Shown one piece after another: positions 41,193 to 55,134 of a DNA stretch of 64,000 nucleotides. The notes under the pieces were generated by a model that saw only the letters and a program-made list of their open reading frames with translations, did not search any database and was not told the DNA's origin. Each line of letters begins with the position of its first letter. Within the stretch, counting starts at the first letter, position 1. The position numbers and the translations under genes were made by a program. The stretch spans positions 186,001 to 250,000 of the forward strand of contig WTFY01000009.1 of NCBI GenBank assembly GCA_011523795.1, read 5' to 3'. This stretch comes from Gammaproteobacteria bacterium (GTDB lineage: Bacteria > Pseudomonadota > Gammaproteobacteria > UBA4575).

Positions 41193-42731
41193 TCAGGCCG
41201 CTTCTGCCTGCCCTTCCTCTTGGCACGCCTGATTATCATCGCCAGGCTGAAGTACAATCGCATTGCTCACAAGCTGATGCAGGCTGACGATCTGGTCCAT
41301 ATCAAAGTCATAGTATGGAAACACCTTTGAAAACTGGCTTTTGCAAATTGCACAAATTGCAGCCATATGTGTTACACCGTAGTCATCGACCACATTCTTC
41401 AAAGCCTCCATGCGCGGCAATGCACCTTTCACACGAAGCTCAATCAAGTCATCTGTCAGCAACCCGCCGCCACCGCCGCAACAGTATGTACCTTCCTTGA
41501 TGGCATAACCCGGCATGTCCACATAGTTATTACATACTGCCTTGATAATTTCCCTCGGAATCTCAAACTGGCCGCCGGGTCGGTCACCCATACGAGACGC
41601 ACGAGCAACGTTGCAGGAATCATGATATGTGACCACCATGTCGTCATTCTGTGAAGGATCAAGAACCAGCTTGCCTTCCTGAATCAGTCCATGCGTAACT
41701 TCACAGACGTGTTGTGGTACGGGATAATCAGGGTCCAGAAAGTCAAATGGCCCGGCAAGTGTGTTCAGGAAAGAGTACGCCACACGCCATGCATGTCCGC
41801 ACTCGCCGAACACAATTCGCTTTACACCAAGATCGATCGCAGCCTGGCGGATCCGCATAGCCAGCTTCTGCATGTTTTCATAGCTGCCAATGAACATGCC
41901 AAAGTTAGCCGCCTCGCTGGCATAGGAACTCAGGGTCCATGAAATTCCTGCCTGGTGAAATACTTTTGCGTATCCGATCAATCCGTCTATGTGCGGTTCT
42001 GCAAAAAAATCTGCAGACGGGGTAATCAACAGAACTTCCGCGCCCTCTACATCCAGTGGAAACCTCACCGCTACGCCGGTCTCTTCCTCAACGTCTTCTT
42101 CAAGGCCCTCCAAGGTGTCCGCCAAGGCTGGCTCCGGCAAGCCAAGATTATTTCCTATTACATGAACCTTGCCGATAATCTCATTACAGTACTTTTGCCC
42201 TTTTCCCACTGCATCCATCACTTCACGTGCAGCCATGGATATTTCTGCAGTATCTATTCCATAAGGGCAGTAAACGGAACAGCGCCTGCACTGTGAACAC
42301 TGGTGAAAGTAGCTGTACCAGTCATCCAGAACTTCCTCGGTCAGGTCTTCAGCACCTACAAGTTTCGGGAATAGCCTGCCGGAAAGGGTGTGATAACGCC
42401 TGTAAACTTTTCTGAACAGGTCCTGGCGGGCAACCGGCATGTTTTTCGGGTCTGATGTCCCAAGGTAATAGTGACACTTGTCTGTACAAGCGCCACATTT
42501 AACACAGGAATCCAAAAATACCTGCAATGAACGATACTTGCCCGTCAGTTCACCCATTTTTTCAATAGCCACCTCTTTCCAGTTGTCCACCAGTTCGCCT
42601 GGAAAACCTAGCTTCTCCTGGAAATCGGCCTTCGCAACAAATGGCCGACTATGTGACATTACGCCTTCCTGCAGGCGAGGAATCACGGGGTATTCATCGA
42701 TTTTTGGTGTTTCAAATTCTGGTGCAGCCAT
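41193..42731 (-). CDS. dsrK: DsrK, HdrD-like catalytic Fe-S subunit
   Basis: 512-residue cytoplasmic subunit of DsrMKJOP, related to heterodisulfide reductase HdrD. Two ferredoxin motifs (CVKCGACTDKCHYY and CSQCRRCSVYCPYG) are followed by the two CCG-type segments: CGHAWRVAY/YHDSCNVARA and YCCGGGGGLLTDD. In the accepted model it handles the DsrC disulfide/trisulfide. It starts 11 bp after dsrM. Confidence 0.96.
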   Translation of the reverse strand: MAAPEFETPKIDEYPVIPRLQEGVMSHSRPFVAKADFQEKLGFPGELVDNWKEVAIEKMGELTGKYRSLQVFLDSCVKCGACTDKCHYYLGTSDPKNMPVARQDLFRKVYRRYHTLSGRLFPKLVGAEDLTEEVLDDWYSYFHQCSQCRRCSVYCPYGIDTAEISMAAREVMDAVGKGQKYCNEIIGKVHVIGNNLGLPEPALADTLEGLEEDVEEETGVAVRFPLDVEGAEVLLITPSADFFAEPHIDGLIGYAKVFHQAGISWTLSSYASEAANFGMFIGSYENMQKLAMRIRQAAIDLGVKRIVFGECGHAWRVAYSFLNTLAGPFDFLDPDYPVPQHVCEVTHGLIQEGKLVLDPSQNDDMVVTYHDSCNVARASRMGDRPGGQFEIPREIIKAVCNNYVDMPGYAIKEGTYCCGGGGGLLTDDLIELRVKGALPRMEALKNVVDDYGVTHMAAICAICKSQFSKVFPYYDFDMDQIVSLHQLVSNAIVLQPGDDNQACQEEGQAEAA

Positions 42732-42742
42732 TTCTAACCTGT

Positions 42743-43474
42743 CTAGGACGATTCAAGTCTGTTGGCCCAGTCCGCAACATGACGCTTTTCACGAGGATTA
42801 TCCACCTGGTTTCGAGTAGGGCTGAAAAAAACACCCGGGGCATGCAAGAGCTTGCTGAATGGGAAAATGATCATCAGCAAGATGACAAGGCTCAAATGCA
42901 CAATCAAAACCAGATCATTCGGCATGGGCGACCAGTTAAATACCATCAACCCCAGTATAAATGCTTTAAGTGACACGATATCCGTATGATCTACAAAAGT
43001 CATCAACGCTCCTGTCACACCGATAGCAATTAACAACAGCAGCATCAGGTGGTCCGAAGGCGCAGAAATATAACGAACACGGTCTACCAATATCCTTCGT
43101 GCCCACAAGCCGGCAAGGCCAGCCAGCATCATGAAGGCGGCATACTTGCCGAAAGGCTGCAAGAAAACAACCCATGCCCAGACGGGATCAGTGAAGTAAC
43201 GCAAGTGCCTCAACAGCACCAAGAGCAAACCAAAGTGAAACATCCAGCCGAACAACCATGTCCATTTGCTCGACTTGAACAGGCTTTCAAATACTGTGAG
43301 TTCCTTGACCATCCGGAATACTACGCCAAGACGGGTCGTCGGGGCTGGAGTAGTGGGAATCTTCAATGGCGCCGGCGTTTTGGCATATCCCCAGATTTTA
43401 TATGCAGTAAAGGCCAGCAATACAACGGTTGCCACATAGAACAAGGCTGCAAAGACTATAGTTAAGACCGGCAT
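42743..43474 (-). CDS. dsrM: DsrM, membrane cytochrome b subunit
   Basis: 243-residue integral membrane protein with about five helices, related to NarI-type diheme cytochrome b. Histidines likely to bind haem lie in WMFHFGLLLVLLRHL and in the LVLIVHLSLVIL helix. It partners DsrK in electron exchange with the quinone pool. It follows the hairpin after dsrC. Confidence 0.94.
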   Translation of the reverse strand: MPVLTIVFAALFYVATVVLLAFTAYKIWGYAKTPAPLKIPTTPAPTTRLGVVFRMVKELTVFESLFKSSKWTWLFGWMFHFGLLLVLLRHLRYFTDPVWAWVVFLQPFGKYAAFMMLAGLAGLWARRILVDRVRYISAPSDHLMLLLLIAIGVTGALMTFVDHTDIVSLKAFILGLMVFNWSPMPNDLVLIVHLSLVILLMIIFPFSKLLHAPGVFFSPTRNQVDNPREKRHVADWANRLESS

Positions 43475-43523
43475 CTACAACTTCCCTAGGCGTATTAGGT
43501 CCTGTTCATACTATACGTCCGGT

Positions 43524-43552
43524 GAAACGAAAGGCAGCATGCCTTTCATTTC
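43524..43552 (-). promoter_or_regulatory. Strong hairpin between dsrC and dsrM
   Basis: Inverted repeat GAAAGGCA/TGCCTTTC with a three-base loop, extended by four further pairs after one mismatch, about 24 bp downstream of the dsrC stop on the minus strand. There is no long U-run. It could be a partial terminator or an mRNA-stabilising structure that gives dsrC higher transcript levels than the membrane-complex genes. Confidence 0.6.
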
Positions 43553-43575
43553 AGCCTGCACACATGATTCAGAGC

Positions 43576-43908
43576 CTAGACGCAACCTGTCGGTTTAGGC
43601 AGGCCTGCATACTTACATGCTTGCTTAGCAGGCCCATAAGGAAACAGTTCATACAGGTACTTGCTGTTACCTTTATCCTTTCCCAGTTTTTTGCCAATCG
43701 CCTTGGTTAAGACCCGCACGGCTGGAGCAATCTGGTATTCCTCGTAGTATGAGCGAAGAAAATTAATTACTTCCCAGTGGTTCTCTCCGAGTTCAGCGCC
43801 GTCTGCTTCTGCCATGGCATCAGCCAGTTCCGGTCGCCAATCGTTTAGGTTGGCCAGATAGCCTTCCTCATCAGTCTCAAAGGACTGGCCATTTACTTCT
43901 AAGGACAT
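43576..43908 (-). CDS. dsrC: DsrC, canonical two-cysteine sulfur carrier
   Basis: 110 residues: MSLEVNGQSFETDEEGYL, then WEVINFLRSYYEEYQIAPAV (helix-turn-helix-like region) and the C-terminal arm ACKYAGLPKPTGCV. Cys98 and the penultimate Cys109 have the CX10C spacing needed to form the DsrC trisulfide. It receives sulfur from DsrEFH and presents it to DsrAB. It is the only one of three DsrC-like proteins in this window with both cysteines. Confidence 0.97.
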   Translation of the reverse strand: MSLEVNGQSFETDEEGYLANLNDWRPELADAMAEADGAELGENHWEVINFLRSYYEEYQIAPAVRVLTKAIGKKLGKDKGNSKYLYELFPYGPAKQACKYAGLPKPTGCV

Positions 43909-43947: not shown

Positions 43948-44256
43948 TCACAACCACGATTGAACCGCATCATGTTCAGTCGCCAAATCTACAAAACCAT
44001 TATAATCTACTACCTGAATACCATTGATCAACTTGTCTTCACCAAGTCCACGCGCCTTGACATCCGGACCCATTACATAGAACGAGAAATCATGCATGGC
44101 CTGAGCAATTCTTTCACTGAACTTCGTATTCTGCATGGCAGCTATTACGCCGTCTTCGAACAAAAGTATGGAGCTCCCCGCCTTGGCAAGGCGTAGACAT
44201 GATTCCAGGGCGTTGCGTTCGAATGGTGATTTATTTACGGTGTGTAAAACTGACAT
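43948..44256 (-). CDS. dsrH: DsrH (TusB-like) sulfurtransferase subunit
   Basis: 102-residue subunit of the DsrE2F2H2 hexamer. Cys20 in NALESCLRLAKAG corresponds to the conserved DsrH cysteine. It starts 3 bp after dsrF and belongs to the dsrEFHC sulfur-transfer module that marks oxidative rather than reductive Dsr pathways. Confidence 0.94.
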   Translation of the reverse strand: MSVLHTVNKSPFERNALESCLRLAKAGSSILLFEDGVIAAMQNTKFSERIAQAMHDFSFYVMGPDVKARGLGEDKLINGIQVVDYNGFVDLATEHDAVQSWL

Positions 44257-44259
44257 GGC

Positions 44260-44679
44260 TTAGAAACTCAATATCACGTCCTGTTCATTGATAATTTCAG
44301 TCAGTTCGCTGCGGCCCACGAGGAACAGTGAATCCTTCTCTGCCCAGTCATCATCTTCGTCCTCATACTTCAACGCCTGAAGATCATCAGCGGTTAAACC
44401 ACGCTCTTCCAACGACTCCTTCTCGACATAGACCTTTTTGATGTCGTAGTCACCAAGTGCCGTATACGTTTTGGAGAAATTCTTCATGCCAATGCTTTCA
44501 GTGTCCTGTCCTTTGGTCAGTTGGTATACGCCATCATCCACAAATACCAGACTGATGTCCTGGTCGAATGCCGCTGCGATTAGCACTACTTCCAGAGACT
44601 CCAATGCGTAGATGGTGCCGTAGGGTGCCTTGCGATTGATATAACAGAACCTCTTGACTACGCCTTCACCATTTTCCAC
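44260..44679 (-). CDS. dsrF: DsrF (TusC-like) sulfurtransferase subunit
   Basis: 139-residue member of the DsrE/F superfamily with VVKRFCYINRKAPYGTIYALE at the N-terminus and IGMKNFSKTYTALGDYDI near the middle. The start is a GTG at 44679. It forms the DsrEFH complex with its neighbours, 16 bp from dsrE and 3 bp from dsrH. Confidence 0.94.
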   Translation of the reverse strand: MENGEGVVKRFCYINRKAPYGTIYALESLEVVLIAAAFDQDISLVFVDDGVYQLTKGQDTESIGMKNFSKTYTALGDYDIKKVYVEKESLEERGLTADDLQALKYEDEDDDWAEKDSLFLVGRSELTEIINEQDVILSF

Positions 44680-44695
44680 AGGAAACCCCTAAATA

Positions 44696-45088
44696 CTAAT
44701 CCCCGAAAGTTACAAGACGGTCTGTCTGGATTCCCGCTTCGATAAGTTGCCCCAGGCCAGAAATACGAAATCCCGGTGCCAGGTTATGTGCATTTTTGCC
44801 GTGTCGCCCCATCTCATCTTCGTCCAAAATGCCACGGCGTTGGGCAGCAGCTACGCACACGACCAAATCCAGCCCATGCTTTTCTGCAAGTTCAGACCAC
44901 TCTTTTGTCAGGTTCCGGTCATCTTGAGGCGGCACACCGAGACGGGTGCCGTTATTGACTCCATCATGATAGAAAAAGACACGAAAAATATCGTGCCCCT
45001 TTTCTATCGCAGCTTTTACAAACTGCAATGCCGAGTCAGAAGATTGATGCGTATACGGTCCCTCATTGATAACAATTCCAAACTTCAC
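44696..45088 (-). CDS. dsrE: DsrE (TusD-like) sulfur-accepting subunit
   Basis: 130 residues. Cys78 in HGLDLVVCVAAAQRRG matches the position of the active cysteine of Allochromatium DsrE, which carries the sulfur passed to DsrC. The N-terminal KFGIVINEGPYTHQSSDSA is typical. The start is a GTG at 45088, 15 bp after dsrB. Confidence 0.95.
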   Translation of the reverse strand: MKFGIVINEGPYTHQSSDSALQFVKAAIEKGHDIFRVFFYHDGVNNGTRLGVPPQDDRNLTKEWSELAEKHGLDLVVCVAAAQRRGILDEDEMGRHGKNAHNLAPGFRISGLGQLIEAGIQTDRLVTFGD

Positions 45089-45103: not shown

Positions 45104-46177
45104 CTAGAAGCGGATATGGGCAGATGAATTCAGGCTTCTGCGTGCACCACGCCAATTGTCGATGTGAAACTTGGTAAAGGGAAGTCCGGTTGCCTCAAAA
45201 AATCTTGGCCAGCCGATGCGCTCAATCCAGTCGTTGATACGCTCCCAGTCCTTGGCTCCATCGCGATAGGCACGCAGAATTTGCTTGACTACCGCCGTGG
45301 CTTCTGGCCAGCGTGGCGGATTGTTGGGTATGCCTGCAGCAACGAGTTTCTGGAAAGTGGGCTTGCCTCGGGCATTGCTGTGATTTCCTCCTACCCATAT
45401 TGCAAGCTGACTGTGCTCAGCATCATTGATCTGCATGGGTGGGCATGGAGGATAACATGCACCACAGCAAATACATTTCTTTTCGTCCACTTCAAGGGAA
45501 GGCTTGCCATTTACCTGGGCTGGACGGATGGCAGCTACGGGACAACGGGCAACGACTGATGGCCGCTCACATACATTGGATACCAAGTCATGGTTGATCT
45601 TGGGTGGCTTGGTATGCTGCACATTGATGGCAATATCACCCTGGCCTCCACAATTAATTTGACAGCATGAGGTCGTGATGTGCACGCGATTGGGCATGTT
45701 GTTCTCCCTGAACTCATCAATCAACTCATCCATCATCGCCTTGACTACTCCGGAAGCGTCAGTCCCCGGGATATCGCAATGCAGCCAACCCTGCGTATGC
45801 GAGATCATGGCTACGGAGTTTTTCGTTCCCCCTACTACGAAACCTTCCGATTCCAATTCATCAATCAGCGGCTGCACCTTGGCTTCGTCTGCGACCATGT
45901 ATTCAATGTTGCTGCGAATCGTGAATCGCACGTAGCCTTCTGCAAACTCGTCTCCAATCTCGCAGAGTTTCCGCAAGGTAAACACATCCAAGATACGCTG
46001 CGTCCCAGCACGCACAGTCCAGATCCTGTCTCCACTCTCTGCCACATGAAGCAACACGCCGGGTCGTGGGTGTTCGTGGTAATCCCAGCTTCCGTAATTT
46101 CTACGCATCACGGGGTGCATGTACTGAAATCCGTCCGGACAGCCTGATTCAATCGGTGCGCGATGGTGTTGCGCCAT
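45104..46177 (-). CDS. dsrB: Reverse dissimilatory sulfite reductase subunit beta
   Basis: 357 residues of the siroheme sulfite reductase beta chain. Cluster-binding cysteines appear in ITTSCCQINCGGQGDI, and the inserted ferredoxin domain has CICCGACYPPCPPM. With DsrA it forms the alpha2-beta2 enzyme that, in sulfur oxidisers, converts DsrC-bound sulfur to sulfite. Direction of catalysis is inferred from the neighbouring dsrEFH and dsrL. Confidence 0.97.
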   Translation of the reverse strand: MAQHHRAPIESGCPDGFQYMHPVMRRNYGSWDYHEHPRPGVLLHVAESGDRIWTVRAGTQRILDVFTLRKLCEIGDEFAEGYVRFTIRSNIEYMVADEAKVQPLIDELESEGFVVGGTKNSVAMISHTQGWLHCDIPGTDASGVVKAMMDELIDEFRENNMPNRVHITTSCCQINCGGQGDIAINVQHTKPPKINHDLVSNVCERPSVVARCPVAAIRPAQVNGKPSLEVDEKKCICCGACYPPCPPMQINDAEHSQLAIWVGGNHSNARGKPTFQKLVAAGIPNNPPRWPEATAVVKQILRAYRDGAKDWERINDWIERIGWPRFFEATGLPFTKFHIDNWRGARRSLNSSAHIRF

Positions 46178-46230: not shown

Positions 46231-47493
46231 TTATGCGGCGGATGCCCGCTGTTCAGCTTTCCTCTGGAACCATTTTTCGGCTTCCTCATCCCAGCTGTCT
46301 GCACGCAGGTATGAACTCTGACGTGGCTCATTCACCATGTTGGGATCCACATCAACACCAATGCCTTCCAGAAAGTTGACGAGGCCGATACGCTCGATCA
46401 TTTCGCCACAGCGTTCATGCTCCAAGCCATTTTCTGCCCAGAAATCGATGGTCTCTTCTGCCAGCTCGACCAGCTTTTCGTAGTCTTCTTCCGTCTCAAG
46501 TTTCATGAAAGGCACTACTACAGTACCCATCAGGTCGCCTATCTTGAGGGTTCGCTTGCCACCGATCAAAACAGTTATGCCCGTGTCGTCTCCCGGAGAC
46601 AGTGCTTTTACCATTACATTCAGACAGTGCATGCATCGCACGCAGTCCTGGTTGTTAACCTCAAGGGTATCGTCATCCTTGAGCGCAAGTGCCTGGGTGG
46701 GACAACGGGTGATTACATTGTCTATGACATACTGACGGCCCTTACGCTTCACGAATTTCTTGACTTCATCCTGATCAACTTTCATGTCGTCACGCCATGT
46801 GCCGATGATGGAGAAATCCGAACGTTCAACCGAATTCATGCAATCATTCGGACATCCTGAAACTTTGAACTTGAATTTATAGGGTAGTGCTGGCCTGTGA
46901 ACATCATCAGTAAAATTGTTGAGCAGGGTTCGATGAATCCTCATTTCATCGGCATTCGACATCTCGCAACGCGCAGAACCTACGCAGGACTGGCCTGTTC
47001 GCACACATGGCCCTGCACCCCCCAGATCCCATCCATAGTCATTGATTTCATCAAAAAAGTGCTGCGTATTTTCCGTTGTAGCACCAATGAACATGATATT
47101 GCCGGTCTGCCCATGGAAAGTAACCAGGCCTGAACCCCATTTTTCCCAGCTTGTGCCAAGCTGTCGCAGCATGTCTGTCGTATAGTAGTTTCCTGCAGGA
47201 GGCTGAACTCGCAGAGTATGAAATTCCTTCGATTCGGGAAACGCGGCACCCACCTCTGAAAACCGGGGGATAATGCCGCTGCCGTATCCGAACACTGACA
47301 CCGTACCCCCTTTCCAGTAGCCCTTGCGTGTTTCGTAGGAGTGCTCCAACTGGCCCAACAGTGAATTGGCTACACCGCGTACTCGTTCGTCCTGATGTTT
47401 GTCACGCAAGCGTTTGATGCCGGAAACAAAACTTGGCCATGGACCCGTTTCCAGATCATCAAGCATGGGGGTGGGATGGTGCGTATCGGCCAT
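46231..47493 (-). CDS. dsrA: Reverse dissimilatory sulfite reductase subunit alpha
   Basis: 420 residues. The siroheme/[4Fe-4S] cysteines lie in SCVGSARCEMSNADE and SGCPNDCMNSVERSD, and the ferredoxin insert has CPTQALAL and CVRCMHCLNVM. It is the first gene of the dsr operon, with AAGGAG about nine bases before the ATG and a promoter about 70 bp upstream. The long run of dsr genes that follows has short gaps throughout. Confidence 0.97.
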   Translation of the reverse strand: MADTHHPTPMLDDLETGPWPSFVSGIKRLRDKHQDERVRGVANSLLGQLEHSYETRKGYWKGGTVSVFGYGSGIIPRFSEVGAAFPESKEFHTLRVQPPAGNYYTTDMLRQLGTSWEKWGSGLVTFHGQTGNIMFIGATTENTQHFFDEINDYGWDLGGAGPCVRTGQSCVGSARCEMSNADEMRIHRTLLNNFTDDVHRPALPYKFKFKVSGCPNDCMNSVERSDFSIIGTWRDDMKVDQDEVKKFVKRKGRQYVIDNVITRCPTQALALKDDDTLEVNNQDCVRCMHCLNVMVKALSPGDDTGITVLIGGKRTLKIGDLMGTVVVPFMKLETEEDYEKLVELAEETIDFWAENGLEHERCGEMIERIGLVNFLEGIGVDVDPNMVNEPRQSSYLRADSWDEEAEKWFQRKAEQRASAA

Positions 47494-47603: not shown

Positions 47604-47624
47604 AGTCAAGTACACCACTTGAGT
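47604..47624. promoter_or_regulatory. Imperfect palindrome upstream of the dsrA promoter
   Basis: Arms AGTCAAGT (47604-47611) and ACTTGAGT (47617-47624) pair at seven of eight positions around a 5-bp spacer. It lies just upstream of the proposed -35 of dsrA and between the divergent dsrA and TauD genes. It does not match the NarL heptamer consensus. The binding protein is unknown. Confidence 0.45.
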
Positions 47625-47765
47625 CTAGAAGCAGGAGCAGCACGGCAAAACCCCCTCCATGGGGGGCCAGATTATCCCAATAGGGATAGGGTCAATCGAG
47701 GACCTATCCCCCGGAAAATCCTAGAAACATCAGGTATAGTTCTCAATTGGCTGGTATGCAGTGTC

Positions 47766-48731
47766 ATGACCTGGCCAGCCTGTCCTGAATGTCCAAGATT
47801 CCTCTATGCCATGCAGCAATTCTCCCTAGAAAATGATAGCGCGTACCGTCAGTGGAGAACCCGCAAACTCCGGGCATATCCGACCGGTACTGAACAGCTC
47901 ACCGTCATGGTTCAAAGGCCCCATCAGCTCACGCAAGAAGAAAAGGGAAACCTGCTGCAAGCATGTGAAAAAACCAATCTTGTTTTCTACAGGACCGACC
48001 CTGGACTGGAACAGAGCAAGCATGTCGTGGCTGCAATGGCCCGGCAGCTGAGCCTGACCCATATGGATGCCAACTTCTGTGCTGACAAAGACAGCATCTC
48101 TTCAATCCAGGTGATGGATAAAGGGCCAGGGAGCACTTCCTATATTCCGTACACGCACAGGGCCCTGAACTGGCATACAGATGGCTACTATAACCTGGAT
48201 TCACAGCGCATCCGGGCATTTCTCATGCATTGCGTGCGCCCGGCAAGTACAGGCGGAGAAAATACCTACCTGGACCCTGAAATCCTGTACATCCAGCTGC
48301 GGGATCAAAACCCGGATCATGTTGAGGCGTTGATGGACCCGCAAGCCATGACCATCCCCCCTAATCCGGAAAACCAGAAAAGGGGGTTCAGTGCAAAATC
48401 TGGACCCGTGTTCATGGTTGATGAACCTACACAGACGCTCTACATGCGCTATACCGCACGCACGCGTAACATCATGTGGAAGGACAGCTTTCATCTACGC
48501 AAGGCAAGACTTACACTACAGGAAATTCTCAATGACAGTGAGTACCGGTTTCGGCATCTCCTGCAGAGTGGAGAAGGTGTATTGTGCAACAACGTGTTAC
48601 ATAACCGAACGATGTTCACCGATCATTCAACGTCAAAACGCCTGTTATACCGTGCCCGCTTTTACGAGCGCGTGGCAAAGCCCGGTGTTACCAGCGACAA
48701 ACGGCCGGCAACCGATGCTGTGGCTCAGTGA
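47766..48731 (+). CDS. TauD/TfdA-family 2-oxoglutarate/Fe(II) dioxygenase
   Basis: Non-haem iron dioxygenase of the clavaminate synthase/TauD fold. The facial triad is visible: His and Asp in LNWHTDGYYN and the distal His in CNNVLHNRTMF, followed by the arginine-rich RLLYRARFYERV expected to bind 2-oxoglutarate. From the ATG at 47766 it would be 321 residues; the ATG at 47811 and an open frame back to 47619 are alternatives, and none has a good ribosome-binding site. It is divergent from dsrA and begins a run of accessory genes. The substrate is unknown; sulfonates are possible but unproven. Confidence 0.75.
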   Translation: MTWPACPECPRFLYAMQQFSLENDSAYRQWRTRKLRAYPTGTEQLTVMVQRPHQLTQEEKGNLLQACEKTNLVFYRTDPGLEQSKHVVAAMARQLSLTHMDANFCADKDSISSIQVMDKGPGSTSYIPYTHRALNWHTDGYYNLDSQRIRAFLMHCVRPASTGGENTYLDPEILYIQLRDQNPDHVEALMDPQAMTIPPNPENQKRGFSAKSGPVFMVDEPTQTLYMRYTARTRNIMWKDSFHLRKARLTLQEILNDSEYRFRHLLQSGEGVLCNNVLHNRTMFTDHSTSKRLLYRARFYERVAKPGVTSDKRPATDAVAQ

Positions 48732-48738
48732 AATTCTC

Positions 48739-48915
48739 ATGCAGCATCATGAGCTGCAGTCATTTGAGGAACTCAAGGAAATGCTGAACAGGTGTGCGCA
48801 AAAGGGAGAGAGATTCTTTCGCATGGACGTGCGCCCCCCTTTCCATGATACCCCTGAAAACTGGGAAGACATTCTCGAATCCGTTTTCACAACAGCGAAC
48901 AAGGTGACCGACTGA
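48739..48915 (+). CDS. Small hypothetical protein in the dsr accessory cluster
   Basis: 58 residues from the ATG at 48739, or 66 from 48715, which would overlap the TauD gene by 17 bp. It is acidic and helical at the start (HELQSFEELKEMLNRCAQKG), followed by RFFRMDVRPPFHDTPENWED. It lies between the TauD and Cas6-like genes with 6-7 bp on either side, so it is probably translated from the same transcript. I do not recognise the family. Confidence 0.6.
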   Translation: MQHHELQSFEELKEMLNRCAQKGERFFRMDVRPPFHDTPENWEDILESVFTTANKVTD

Positions 48916-48921
48916 CTTCTC

Positions 48922-49611
48922 ATGTACTGGCAGGACTCGAATGACAAGAAAGAACAGTTCGTTGTACCGGATGAAATTGTAGACCTGTCCTTCAAGGTAC
49001 AGTGCAGGCAGTTGCCACTTGACCATGCCTACGACCTTTCCAGGGCCATTCAGGAGGAACTGCCCTGGATGGCTGACGAACCCCGGGCAGGTATTCACCT
49101 GATACATGGAGCAGAATCAGGAAATGGCTGGATACGGCCACAGGATCCCAATGCACTTTTGACACTGTCCCGCCGTACCCGCTTCATGCTGCGGCTGCCG
49201 AAACAAAAGGTTAACGCCGCCACACAGCTTGCAGGAAAAAGGATTCGGGTAGGCAGCCATGAACTCGTGCTCAGTCAGCCACAAGAAAAATTACTTTCCT
49301 CACACACCACGATCTTTGCCCGGTACATCGCTACTGATTACCTCACAGATGAACAGGCCTTTCTGAACCAGGTCGCTGGTTGGCTGGGCAATGAGGGCAT
49401 ACAGGCGAGAAAAATGATAAGCGGACGTGCCCATGTATTGCGCATGCCTGAAAAGGATCTGGCCACGCGAAGCCTGATGATTGCAAGTCTTGACATAAAG
49501 GACTCCATTCACTTGCAACAACATGGCCTGGGTGCGGGACGCAAGGTGGGGTGTGGACTATTCCTACCTCATAAGGGTATTGACGCAGTAGGACAATCGC
49601 AGGAAAAATAA
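48922..49611 (+). CDS. Cas6/Cmx6-like RAMP protein, no CRISPR array nearby
   Basis: 229-residue protein resembling the Cas6 family called Cas6/Cmx6 (subtype MYXAN). Features: VDLSFKVQCRQLPLDHAYDL, GIHLIHGAESGNGW, LSRRTRFMLRLP, GRAHVLRM and a C-terminal glycine-rich loop GLGAGRKVGCGLFLPHKG (about 202-219) typical of RAMP RNA-binding proteins. Cas6 proteins cut CRISPR precursor RNA. Here there are no other cas genes and no repeat array in 64 kb, and the gene lies between dsr-associated genes, 63 bp before a DsrC paralogue. A role in RNA binding or processing for sulfur metabolism is conceivable but inferred. Confidence 0.75.
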   Translation: MYWQDSNDKKEQFVVPDEIVDLSFKVQCRQLPLDHAYDLSRAIQEELPWMADEPRAGIHLIHGAESGNGWIRPQDPNALLTLSRRTRFMLRLPKQKVNAATQLAGKRIRVGSHELVLSQPQEKLLSSHTTIFARYIATDYLTDEQAFLNQVAGWLGNEGIQARKMISGRAHVLRMPEKDLATRSLMIASLDIKDSIHLQQHGLGAGRKVGCGLFLPHKGIDAVGQSQEK

Positions 49612-49674: not shown

Positions 49675-50016
49675 ATGGCAATTAACGTTAATGGCAAAGA
49701 CGTCGAAACTACAAATTCAGGATTCCTGGTCAATATCGAAGACTGGAATGAAGAGGTAGCAGAAGTAATTGCTCGGGAAGAAGACATCGAACTGTCAGAC
49801 AAACACTGGGACGTGATCCGGTATCTCCGAGATGAATTCATCAACAACAACGGCAACCAGCCCAATACCCGTAACATGGTCAAGGCGATGGCAAAGGCAT
49901 GGAACGAAAAAAAGGTAGATGCCAAGTTCTTATATGAACTGTTTCCAGGCAATCCCAGCAAACAGGCTGGGCGTATAGGCGGGTTACCGGAAAGCCGGCG
50001 TAAAGGTGGCTATTGA
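49675..50016 (+). CDS. DsrC/TusE-family paralogue lacking both cysteines
   Basis: 113 residues with the DsrC fold (MAINVNGKDVETTNSGFLVN; WDVIRYLRDEFINNNGNQP; FLYELFPGNPSKQAG). In the C-terminal arm the first cysteine is replaced by glycine and the second by lysine (AGRIGGLPESRRKGGY), and no cysteine remains in the protein, so it cannot carry sulfur. Such proteins are considered regulatory relatives of DsrC (RspA type). AGGAG at 49664-49668 supports the start. It follows the Cas6-like gene. Confidence 0.9.
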   Translation: MAINVNGKDVETTNSGFLVNIEDWNEEVAEVIAREEDIELSDKHWDVIRYLRDEFINNNGNQPNTRNMVKAMAKAWNEKKVDAKFLYELFPGNPSKQAGRIGGLPESRRKGGY

Positions 50017-50115
50017 TTCCGAACTTGGTTTCCCCCACCCAATACGGAATACAGACAGTCTGCCGGCAGTGCACTAAATTTGGTACGCAACACATGATGA
50101 CCATGAGGATCAGAC

Positions 50116-50319
50116 GTGAGTTCTAAACAGGAAAGAATCCAGAAACTGCTTGAGATGCAGAGAAAATTCATTGAGCTTGAGCAAAGAGGGGACTTTACTC
50201 CGGAAGATTACTGGTTGCCGAAGGAAGGAACGGACCTGGCCGGCTTCAAGGATGAATACACGAAACTGGCCATGCAAGTGGTTGATGACGCCCACGAGGA
50301 AGTCGGCTCCAAGGCTTAA
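50116..50319 (+). CDS. Small conserved-looking hypothetical protein (67 residues)
   Basis: Starts at the GTG at 50116 with GAGGA at 50104-50108. The product is highly charged: KQERIQKLLEMQRKFIELEQ forms a likely amphipathic helix, followed by GDFTPEDYWLPKEGTDLAGF and a second helix. It lies 99 bp after the cysteine-free DsrC paralogue in the same direction. I do not recognise a named family. Confidence 0.7.
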   Translation: MSSKQERIQKLLEMQRKFIELEQRGDFTPEDYWLPKEGTDLAGFKDEYTKLAMQVVDDAHEEVGSKA

Positions 50320-50402: not shown

Positions 50403-51071
50403 TCATGTGTCACTCCACATCCGCACCAGATTGACATAAACATTGTCCACGCGCTTGGCATCCTCTGTGTCTGGATCTCTACGCAGCAGCTTTTCACGGG
50501 TTTTCCCCAGCTGATACAGCAGGCCGCGCTGCTCATGGCTTCGCACCAGACTCTGTACCCAGGTCACTGCGACCAGACGTTCACCACCTGCTACCCGCGC
50601 TACCTGATGGCAGGTTGATGCAGGGTACAGCACCGCATCACCTGCAGGACACTTGATTTTCTGAACGCCAAATGGAGTCTGAATCACCAGGTCGCCGCCT
50701 TCGTATTCATCAGGTGAGTTCAGGAATATGGTGACGGCAACATCAGAACGGTAGCGGTCATGTTCGCCCATGACAGGATCATCGATATGCTCACCATAGT
50801 ACATCCCTTCCCTGTACCGGACGTAAAATGGCACAGCTATACGATACGGAAGTGCAGCAAGCTTGTACTCCGGATGACGAACCAAGTTCCCCACAACCAG
50901 TCGATTCAGCTCGGATACGGAGTCTTCGCTGTTTACTTCCTCATTATGCTTCACCACCTGGGCAGTGGCCCCGGCAGAAAGCCTGCCATCACGAAAATCT
51001 GCAGCAGCCAGCAACTTGCGTGCCTGCCTCAGTTCACTTTCACCCAGAACGTACTTGATTTGTACCAACAT
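50403..51071 (-). CDS. PKHD-type 2OG-Fe(II) hydroxylase (PiuC-like)
   Basis: 222 residues from the ATG at 51071. It resembles PiuC/YbiX, which have this length. The metal triad is His/Asp in YYGEHIDDPVMG and the distal His in PASTCHQVARV, with a conserved arginine following (GGERLVAVTW). DVAVTIFLNSPDEYEGGDLVIQ and FGVQKIKCPAGDAVLYP are family segments. PiuC genes usually lie beside iron-siderophore receptors; here the gene is inside the dsr accessory region on the opposite strand, so its target may differ. Confidence 0.88.
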   Translation of the reverse strand: MLVQIKYVLGESELRQARKLLAAADFRDGRLSAGATAQVVKHNEEVNSEDSVSELNRLVVGNLVRHPEYKLAALPYRIAVPFYVRYREGMYYGEHIDDPVMGEHDRYRSDVAVTIFLNSPDEYEGGDLVIQTPFGVQKIKCPAGDAVLYPASTCHQVARVAGGERLVAVTWVQSLVRSHEQRGLLYQLGKTREKLLRRDPDTEDAKRVDNVYVNLVRMWSDT

Positions 51072-51126
51072 TCTTTGAATACTCGGTTTGCCAATACTGA
51101 CATGCCCGCATGACGGAGTGAAGTCG

Positions 51127-51450
51127 ATGATACTGAAAGTCACCATTGATGAAAAAACTTTTCCCTTGCAGCTGGATGACGAAATGGTGCGCGATGCACA
51201 GGAGGCATTCAGAAAAATGGATGAAGACATGGACCGGGGCTGGCAGATGAGCCGGACCTGGGTTGAGCACCCTGATGATCTTCAGCGCTGTCAAATTGCA
51301 GCGGACAGGATGCTCACCGCAATCCAGCAGGAAAAGACGGCCACCGTGGGGTTGATGGCCGCCTATATCGTGAACAGGGTCCCCGGTGTCCAGGCCGTAG
51401 ACATCGATACCTCTGGCGACATGACCCGAACCGAGGTGGTTACAGGATGA
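51127..51450 (+). CDS. Hypothetical protein (107 residues) upstream of dsrL
   Basis: Starts at the ATG at 51127, divergent from the PiuC-like gene. ILKVTIDEKTFPLQLDDEMV forms a beta-strand start, followed by a charged helix (EAFRKMDEDMDRGWQMSRTW) and a second helical part (CQIAADRMLTAIQQEKTATV). There are no catalytic motifs and I do not recognise the family. It ends 201 bp before dsrL. Confidence 0.7.
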   Translation: MILKVTIDEKTFPLQLDDEMVRDAQEAFRKMDEDMDRGWQMSRTWVEHPDDLQRCQIAADRMLTAIQQEKTATVGLMAAYIVNRVPGVQAVDIDTSGDMTRTEVVTG

Positions 51451-53609: not shown

Positions 53610-53948
53610 TCAGGCAACACTGCCGAAACCTTTATCCACTGCACCGGCAGGTACGTGCAGCCCTGCCATTTTGCAGCCCTGGGCAATGGGCCCGCCCGGG
53701 AAAAGGTCGTACAGATATTTCAGCCCACCCTTGTAGTGAAACTTTTCCTCTAATGCATCGTGCAGTTCACGCATGTTAATCAGATTGATCTCATGCCGTG
53801 AATAGTACTCCTGCAGGGCATGCATCACCTCAAAATGGTCATCCGTCAGGGTAATCCCCTCCTCCGCGGCAACTTTTCTGACATCCTCATCAGACCAGTC
53901 TTCAGACATGAAAGAGCGCTCGTTTTCACCTGTCGTCAAGGCAGTCAT
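53610..53948 (-). CDS. DsrC/TusE-family paralogue with one cysteine
   Basis: 112 residues (99 if the ATG of MSEDWSDEDV is used). A near-perfect Shine-Dalgarno, AAGGAGGTG (53956-53964), supports the ATG at 53948. The C-terminal arm reads GCKMAGLHVPAGAVDKGF: the inner cysteine (Cys92) is kept, but the position 11 residues later, the sulfur-carrying cysteine of DsrC, is alanine, and the tail is longer. It may be a regulatory relative. It is the last gene of a minus-strand group with an acetyltransferase, a 2OG oxygenase and a hypothetical protein. Confidence 0.9.
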   Translation of the reverse strand: MTALTTGENERSFMSEDWSDEDVRKVAAEEGITLTDDHFEVMHALQEYYSRHEINLINMRELHDALEEKFHYKGGLKYLYDLFPGGPIAQGCKMAGLHVPAGAVDKGFGSVA

Positions 53949-54065: not shown

Positions 54066-54545
54066 CTAACCTGGCTGCACAAAACACTTTTCCATCCTCT
54101 CATGATGCAACCCGGACAGTTCACTCAGGGCTTCTCCACGTACGACGTAGCCGTTTCTGAAATAAAAGCTTACTGCCGCTTCGCGTGCATACAACCAGCA
54201 GACTCGTATACAGTGGTCCTGTGCAAACTGCTCCAGCTGTAAAAGAAGGGTGCTCCCAATCCCCTTGAGCCTGTACCGGCTGTGAACAGCCATGTACCTG
54301 ATCCTGGCGGTGTGTTGGGTTTCAACATTCAGCCTGCCCACCCCCACAATTTGATCCCCGTCATATGCCGCAAGATGAAATGCATCATTTTCAAGTTCAT
54401 CTCGTTCGCTGCCGCGTGGCAAACACAGGGGTTTGCGCAACATTTCCCACCTGAACGCAAAATACTCGGCAAACTCTGCTGGAGTAGCTGGAGACTTGTA
54501 AAACACCGCGTCTGTGTCATGCAAAGACGACCCACGTCGTGGCAA
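54066..54545 (-). CDS. GNAT family N-acetyltransferase
   Basis: Up to 159 residues with the GNAT fold: DGDQIVGVGRLNVE, ARIRYMAVHSRYRLKGIGSTLL (the acetyl-CoA loop is RLKGIG) and AVSFYFRNGYVVRGE. The nominal start is a TTG at 54545, overlapping the upstream oxygenase gene by 29 bp; a GTG at 54506 is an alternative without overlap. It may modify a small molecule or a protein N-terminus; the target is unknown. Confidence 0.82.
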   Translation of the reverse strand: MPRRGSSLHDTDAVFYKSPATPAEFAEYFAFRWEMLRKPLCLPRGSERDELENDAFHLAAYDGDQIVGVGRLNVETQHTARIRYMAVHSRYRLKGIGSTLLLQLEQFAQDHCIRVCWLYAREAAVSFYFRNGYVVRGEALSELSGLHHERMEKCFVQPG

Positions 54546-55134
54546 TGTACTTAACCCCCTGTTTCAAGGTAACGCCCCGATGCTCATGTGTCCAGAAAGG
54601 TGGAAACAGAACCAGCTTGCCTGCGTCCGGCCGGACCTTTACGCCTTGGAACAGGAATTCCGTTTCTCCCCCGGGACCCTCCACATCATTCAGGTACCAT
54701 ATTGCCACCAGTTGTCGATGACTGAAATCATGGCTGCCGCCGTCCACATGCCAGTGATAATACTCGCCTGCACGGGTCCTTTGTATACCGTAGCCCATGT
54801 CCTTGAATGGACCCTTGAAAAATGGATAACGTTCCCGAAATTCCAGGATGGCGTGTCCTAACGCTCGAAATAACATCCGGTCAGCAAATTTCCAATGTGG
54901 TTTCCCACTGATAACGAGATCCGTGGACTTCTTAACCGTCGTGTCCTGGCCGGCCAGTTGTCCTATACGCCCTTCATATTGTTCATTTTCGGCATTCTCA
55001 AAGCCCTGAATGACCTCGGCACAAAACTGCCTGGAAAGGGAGCCGTGCTGCTCAAAAATGAAACTGCCCGGCTTGATCTCCCGAATTGCCTTGGGTGGAG
55101 TCCCGGCCCGGTCTGTTGCCCGACCGACTGTCAC
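54517..55134 (-). CDS. 2OG-Fe(II) oxygenase, prolyl-hydroxylase-like
   Basis: 205 residues from a GTG that overlaps the stop of the upstream gene by 4 bp, so the two are translationally coupled. The iron triad is His/Asp in YHWHVDGGSHDF and the distal His in FWTHEHRGV, with the GGETEFLFQGVKVRPDAG strand pair between. It is the third 2OG-dependent oxygenase within 8 kb. The substrate is unknown. Confidence 0.85.
   Translation of the reverse strand: MTVGRATDRAGTPPKAIREIKPGSFIFEQHGSLSRQFCAEVIQGFENAENEQYEGRIGQLAGQDTTVKKSTDLVISGKPHWKFADRMLFRALGHAILEFRERYPFFKGPFKDMGYGIQRTRAGEYYHWHVDGGSHDFSHRQLVAIWYLNDVEGPGGETEFLFQGVKVRPDAGKLVLFPPFWTHEHRGVTLKQGVKYIATTWVVFA

Follow-up and report, generated by a model that had tools for sequence, protein, structure and literature searches.

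The textbook role of Cas6 is the processing of crRNA, and to our knowledge Cas6-type proteins are normally confined to CRISPR immune systems. DsrC, in turn, is a sulfur carrier with two reactive C-terminal cysteines. CRISPR-derived RNA machinery outside adaptive immunity is described for CreTA and other cases of non-defence CRISPR RNA processing (PMC9458426). For sulfur oxidation, PMC7596348, citing Lenk et al. (2012), places a TauD-like protein, DsrQ, upstream of dsr in the Roseobacter clade and other aerobic sulfur oxidizers.

The locus analysed here carries a Cas6 beside dsrA, within a 64-kb stretch of gammaproteobacterial DNA hereafter called the window. Its closest described relatives are the Cas6/Cmx6 proteins of type I-MYXAN and of type I-B CAST (PDB 8fcj), with which it shares the sequence family, the fold, the histidine at the catalytic position and the loop GxGxxRxxGCGxF. 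Unlike them, it adjoins dsrA and has neither a CRISPR array nor cas3, cas5, cas7, cas8 or cas1 as neighbours. CreTA needs a resident Cascade and CRISPR-like repeats, and we found neither at the dsr-linked Cas6. DsrQ loci are alike in having the tauD–s65 pair divergent from dsrA, as in all seven Cas6-less loci of Alphaproteobacteria type that we examined, whereas Gammaproteobacteria add cas6, dsrC2 and s67 downstream. Our literature search found no paper linking cas6 to dsr or describing cas6, dsrC2 or s67 at dsr, which is weak evidence of absence, as subscription papers lay mostly beyond it.

Results

The Cas6 family and fold

An earlier note, made from the DNA alone, had read the open reading frame as a Cas6/Cmx6 family member with the RAMP glycine-rich loop, and had named a profile search as the check. 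The match is significant: Pfam PF09559 covers the full profile (206.2 bits against a cut-off of 26.7, E = 6.2e-61), NCBIfam TIGR02807, the type I-MYXAN Cas6/Cmx6 family, scores 136.6 against a curated cut-off of 98.85, and several Cas6 models of PADLOC match the same frame. The sole solved structure related by sequence is 8fcj, the Cas6 of a type I-B CAST Cascade (1.2e-14). An AlphaFold2 model, built on an alignment of 53 relatives (pLDDT 88), has the tandem ferredoxin-like RAMP fold of Cas6; its top Foldseek match in the PDB is 8fcu_B (E = 1.9e-17, TM 0.76/0.82), with other Cas6 structures next. Because the Pfam, NCBIfam, PADLOC, 8fcj and predicted-fold matches agree, we regard the assignment to the Cas6 family and fold as secure.

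His35, which occupies the position of the catalytic histidine in Cas6 enzymes, is kept in 80/80 gammaproteobacterial Cas6 proteins in our tree, as are R91 and G212; the other loop glycines are nearly as constant (G202 and G210 in 79, G204 in 78). H35, R91 and the loop residues G202, G204, R207 and G210-C211-G212 are common to CRISPR-linked Cmx6 relatives, and the histidine and loop residues are identical in all six cyanobacterial Cmx6 relatives. Compared with CRISPR Cas6/Cmx6, the dsr clade adds Trp3, an NGWxRP insert (N68-G69-W70-x-R72-P73), Glu144, Lys164/Gly168 and a PHK tail (H217-K218), so the protein shows newly acquired constraints and not decay. RNA endonuclease activity has probably been retained. 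The gene is under strong purifying selection, with a dN/dS of 0.03–0.09 among close relatives and a similar range for s65 and dsrC2. A profile scan of genome contigs confirmed at least 568 relatives, and no full-length match was found in phage and viral collections.

Gene neighbourhood

The earlier note had placed the gene between a TauD-type dioxygenase and a cysteine-free DsrC, close to dsrA. That description held, but it missed the conserved s65 in the gap between tauD and cas6 (Table 1), and a single sequence could not show that the arrangement recurs throughout the class. The commonest gene order among 133 loci runs dsrC-H-F-E-B-A and, divergently, tauD, s65, cas6, dsrC2 and s67, followed by a convergent PKHD-type oxygenase gene. 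We detected s65 in 122 and tauD in 118 of these loci, many of which are just 3.6 kb long. The tauD of the window corresponds to the tauD-like dsrQ of PMC7596348.

Table 1 Features of the window, with the insert protein of other loci in the last line
Feature	Position	Strand	Description
dsrK	41193-42731	-	dsrABEFHCMK operon
dsrM	42743-43474	-	dsrABEFHCMK operon
dsrC–dsrM hairpin	43523-43553	-	TGAAATGAAAGGCATGCTGCCTTTCGTTTCA; strong; single copy in genome; candidate Cas6 substrate
dsrC	43576-43908	-	dsrABEFHCMK operon
dsrH	43948-44256	-	dsrABEFHCMK operon
dsrF	44260-44679	-	dsrABEFHCMK operon
dsrE	44696-45088	-	dsrABEFHCMK operon
dsrB	45104-46177	-	dsrABEFHCMK operon
dsrA	46231-47493	-	first gene of the dsrABEFHCMK operon; divergent from the tauD-s65-cas6 side
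tauD	47619-48731	+	ORF of a TauD/TfdA-family 2-oxoglutarate dioxygenase; true start probably near 47805
s65	48715-48915	+	66-aa conserved protein, family unassigned; overlaps the tauD stop; 6 nt upstream of cas6
cas6	48922-49611	+	229 aa; PF09559/TIGR02807; His35, Gly-rich loop G202-G212, NGWxRP insert (68-73), PHK tail (216-218)
dsrC2	49675-50016	+	cysteine-free DsrC paralogue; RRKGGY end where DsrC has two reactive cysteines
Motif CCCAWWNGGGATAYRG	50038-50054	+	palindromic, conserved; recurs between dsrC2 and s67 in many loci (L070, L134, L140 and L146 among them)
s67	50116-50319	+	67-aa conserved protein; no Pfam or NCBIfam family
PKHD-type hydroxylase	50403-51230	-	near dsr
DsrC-family protein	53610-53948	-	72.7 bits to TIGR03342; downstream of a DsrL-like gene
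2OG-FeII_Oxy_3 protein	54517-55134	-	near dsr
~235-aa insert protein	L181:1525-2235, L184:5611-6312, L194:7317-8012, L209:5122-5835, L210:7869-8528		

Several further features accompany these genes. The DsrC-family protein downstream of the DsrL-like gene adds to dsrC and dsrC2, so the window holds three DsrC paralogues. The PKHD-type hydroxylase and the 2OG-FeII_Oxy_3 protein are Fe(II)/2-oxoglutarate oxygenases near dsr besides TauD. A ~235-aa protein with no Pfam or NCBIfam family lies between s65 and cas6 in several families.

CRISPR context

The window has no CRISPR array and no other cas gene, as the earlier note had also observed. The neighbours of cas6 were identified as non-cas genes, and neither tandem nor regularly spaced repeats were found in the 64-kb window. 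In the genome, which measures 2.07 Mb and is 97% complete, there is a single PF09559 match and no Cas1; Cas1 is also missing in 17 of the 19 members of its family. The linkage to cas3, cas5, cas7, cas8 or cas1 and to an array that marks type I-MYXAN was not found at the window locus.

A spaced-repeat scan, which detected the arrays of the CRISPR loci L214 and L217 used as controls, found no array in the window or in the inspected Cas6 loci. Its matches at Cas6 loci were at L119, L129, L206, L024/L050, L090 and L178; the first three were read out and consist of simple tandem repeats or short dispersed ones, with no spacers between them. Across the class, Cas1 occurs in 135 of 369 genomes and is uncorrelated with Cas6 (phi 0.08, p = 0.13). 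We therefore rejected the idea that the window Cas6 is a CRISPR remnant, given that no Cas1 was found in the genome and no array in the window or the inspected loci, and that its presence is independent of Cas1. At the protein level the identity is Cas6; at the system level it is not CRISPR.

Co-occurrence and adjacency with dsrA

We scored Cas6 by PF09559 and dsrA by TIGR02064 (E < 1e-50, fragments included) in 369 genomes drawn evenly from the class. Each was present in 118 genomes: 111 had both, 7 only Cas6, 7 only dsrA and 244 neither (phi 0.91; Fisher 5e-76, with counts that ignore shared ancestry). Where both lay on one contig, dsrA was directly upstream and divergent in 82 of 84 genomes, at a gap of 662–4511 bp (median 1.7 kb). 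The window's family has exactly this Cas6 in 17 of 19 genomes, including one (G017) in which it is split over two contigs.

The single-gene exceptions are mostly explained by contig ends. For six of the seven Cas6-only genomes, the contig stops at or just past the cassette on the dsrA side (L181–L184, L186, L187), and the L187 contig terminates in a dsrA fragment. The seventh, G315, comes from family f57, in which two other genomes (G074 and G210) have Cas6 and dsrA on separate contigs. At least five of the seven dsrA-only genomes (G087, G096, G127, G140, G223) lose the contig on the expected cas6 side, the other two being G227 and G371. Families f2, f33 and f134 have members with both genes and one member each with neither (G286, G300 and G151, respectively).

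Cas6 is unlinked to dsrA in the dsrA-positive genomes G126, G341, G242 and G321. Where cas6 lies away from dsrA, s65 and/or dsrC2 or s67 have often relocated too (L191, L193, L194, L209). In family f109 (L188 and L189, from G126 and G341), cas6 lies without s65, dsrC2 and s67, divergently adjoining rnc, which encodes RNase III; dsr is at another site of the genome. The neighbourhood survey that the earlier note had proposed thus finds the homologues beside dsrA, not CRISPR, in essentially all sampled dsrA-positive Gammaproteobacteria, so that, with the significant profile match, neither of the refuting outcomes named in the note came about. Its word 'orphan' fits the gene relative to CRISPR but not within the dsr neighbourhood, of which Cas6 is a fixed member. 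It is close to certain that oxidative dsr in Gammaproteobacteria has this CRISPR-free Cas6 as a fixed associate.

Distribution outside the class

Class labels were taken from the window's class (named relatives) and from the known taxonomy of other dsr-bearing classes. A phylum sample contained two further dsrA-positive Gammaproteobacteria, G585 and G612, in which Cas6 adjoins dsrA divergently and the cassette is rearranged (cas6, dsrC-like, tauD). Outside the class, PF09559 was found in 0 of 50 dsrA-positive genomes (47 from the phylum sample and 3 of Alphaproteobacteria type). Alpha-type dsr genomes have the same dsr operon and no Cas6 in 7/7 cases, so Cas6 is not needed for Dsr chemistry itself. 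All seven of these Cas6-less loci (L170–L173, L219–L221) carry tauD and s65 divergent from dsrA; tauD–s65 is thus probably the older dsr-linked pair, and cas6 with dsrC2 an addition seen in this class alone.

In a tree, 80/80 gammaproteobacterial Cas6 proteins form one clade against six cyanobacterial plasmid relatives, a small outgroup. Five of the six have cas3/cas8 or other cas neighbours; the Gloeobacter copy has none.

DsrC2, s65, s67 and a palindromic motif

DsrC2 belongs to the DsrC family by profile (TIGR03342), within the wider TusE/DsrC family. The window protein lacks the reactive C-terminal cysteines of DsrC and has no cysteine at all, and an RRKGGY or KGGY ending is conserved in place of the DsrC tail. 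With the cysteines missing, DsrC2 would be unable to act as a sulfur carrier like DsrC, and its role may instead be structural or regulatory. Neither s65 nor s67 has a family in Pfam or NCBIfam. The invariant residues of s65 are P41, D45, P47, W50, E55 and F58, and a fold search with its model (pLDDT 86) gave no meaningful PDB match.

The palindromic motif downstream of dsrC2 matches as a pattern in 37 of 64 DsrC2–s67 gaps and in some dsrA–tauD regions, and in none of the shuffles or other dsr gaps. It stands 20–21 nt before a TATANT box (16 + 3 of 19 cases). Because its spacing is fixed and no consistent pairing is seen by eye, it is better read as a promoter with an operator near −42 than as RNA, and we set it aside as a Cas6 RNA. 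Motif and box together resemble the operator and promoter of a dsr regulon under a class-II activator.

Candidate RNAs

The strong hairpin that the earlier note had reported after dsrC is there and is conserved in structure. Hairpins below −14 kcal/mol occupy the dsrC–dsrM gap in 56 of 65 loci (median −19), compared with 11% of shuffles, and their sequence differs between genera. A T-rich run follows in just 14%, so most are not simple terminators. A strong hairpin is likewise present here in two or three of the seven dsr operons that lack Cas6 (L171, −27.4; L221, −30.8; perhaps L172). The hairpin is therefore independent of Cas6 and not specific evidence for it, and, being single-copy in the genome as well, it was rejected as a Cas6-specific element.

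No multi-copy RNA motif was found, and all Rfam matches over the dsr region lay far below threshold. GC-rich strong hairpins without shared sequence also occur in the dsrA–dsrB gaps of many loci (for example, L148, L138 and L158). In A. vinosum on sulfide, dsrEFH and dsrC transcripts are reported to exceed dsrA (Grimm et al. 2010, as cited in PMC3397948), so segmental control of the dsr operon does occur.

The dsrC–dsrM hairpin is the kind of site that a Cas6 could use, and as such a candidate. The earlier note's proposal of recruitment to a cellular RNA is a natural inference, because the homologues adjoin dsrA rather than CRISPR and keep the histidine and the loop; its choice of target gains no specific support from the hairpin, since strong ones also occur in some Cas6-less operons. 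We consider the dsr mRNA a plausible target, though we lean slightly against it, and the dsrC–dsrM hairpin in particular an unlikely one.

Discussion

A functional link between Cas6 and Dsr is highly probable. Its best explanation, to which we give even chances, is that a CRISPR Cas6 was exapted as an endoribonuclease that serves oxidative Dsr, its most likely task being the processing or control of an RNA. This explanation builds on the family and fold, the loss of CRISPR context, the co-occurrence and adjacency with dsrA, purifying selection, the retained histidine and loop, and the clade-specific additions; from these we infer the binding and probable cleavage of a specific cellular RNA hairpin and the service to Dsr. 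Cas6 would have been acquired no later than the common ancestor of the sampled dsr-bearing Gammaproteobacteria and then kept as a fixed accessory of the oxidative (reverse) dissimilatory sulfite reductase. It would still bind, and probably cleave, its hairpin in the service of the Dsr pathway, most likely so that a portion of the dsr transcript is processed or stabilised. Action at the dsrC–dsrM hairpin, for example, would leave dsrABEFHC product in excess of dsrMK product, and the adjacently encoded, cysteine-free DsrC2 may take part. The fuller proposal makes a domesticated Cas6, controlled by DsrC2 and processing either the dsr transcript or a dedicated RNA, a requirement of oxidative Dsr in Gammaproteobacteria; it is tentative, and we incline to doubt it.

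Cas6 might instead serve the Dsr lifestyle through another RNA (a tRNA, a regulatory small RNA or the mRNA of its own cassette), or bind without cutting, for example as a DsrC2-coupled sensor. DsrC2, a paralogue of the tRNA-thiolation protein TusE, belongs to the TusE/DsrC family and adjoins Cas6 in most loci, the relocated Cas6 of family f109 lies beside an RNase III gene, and the dsrC–dsrM hairpin is not specific to Cas6. However, the cassette has no conserved tRNA-modification gene, the rnc adjacency is confined to one family, and the invariant histidine at the catalytic position argues against binding only; we consider these variants rather improbable.

That Cas6 was inserted beside dsr once and has persisted as a passenger, functionally unconnected to sulfur oxidation, would accord with the single clade, as seen against six cyanobacterial outgroup sequences, and with the conserved synteny. 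The low dN/dS, the retention of Cas6 in dsrA-positive genomes even when away from dsr, and the joint absence of Cas6 and dsrA from members of f2, f33 and f134 make such passive carriage very unlikely. Hardly any weight falls on a Cas6 that is defence-related or supplies crRNA processing in trans to CRISPR systems at other sites of the genome. Cyanobacterial members of the family are CRISPR-associated, but Cas1 is absent from the window's own genome and from most of its family and uncorrelated with Cas6 across the class, and the scan that recovered the control arrays found none in the inspected cassette loci.

CRISPR-less Cas6 genes are easily dismissed as remnants or misannotations, and the present case is a warning for annotators because automated naming makes them CRISPR-associated in hundreds of genomes, with no CRISPR implied. 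Among the sampled Gammaproteobacteria, Cas6 marks oxidative dsr as constantly as dsrA itself does, and gammaproteobacterial Dsr gains a lineage-specific accessory set beyond the textbook dsr genes: cas6, dsrC2 and s67, together with the older tauD–s65. Two testable questions follow, namely which RNA Cas6 cuts and whether sulfur oxidation fails without it. As a near-universal, CRISPR-independent companion of gammaproteobacterial dsr, Cas6 points to an undescribed RNA-level step in the running or regulation of sulfur oxidation by these bacteria; if the fuller proposal is true, CRISPR would have supplied a central energy pathway with a regulator that acts by RNA processing.
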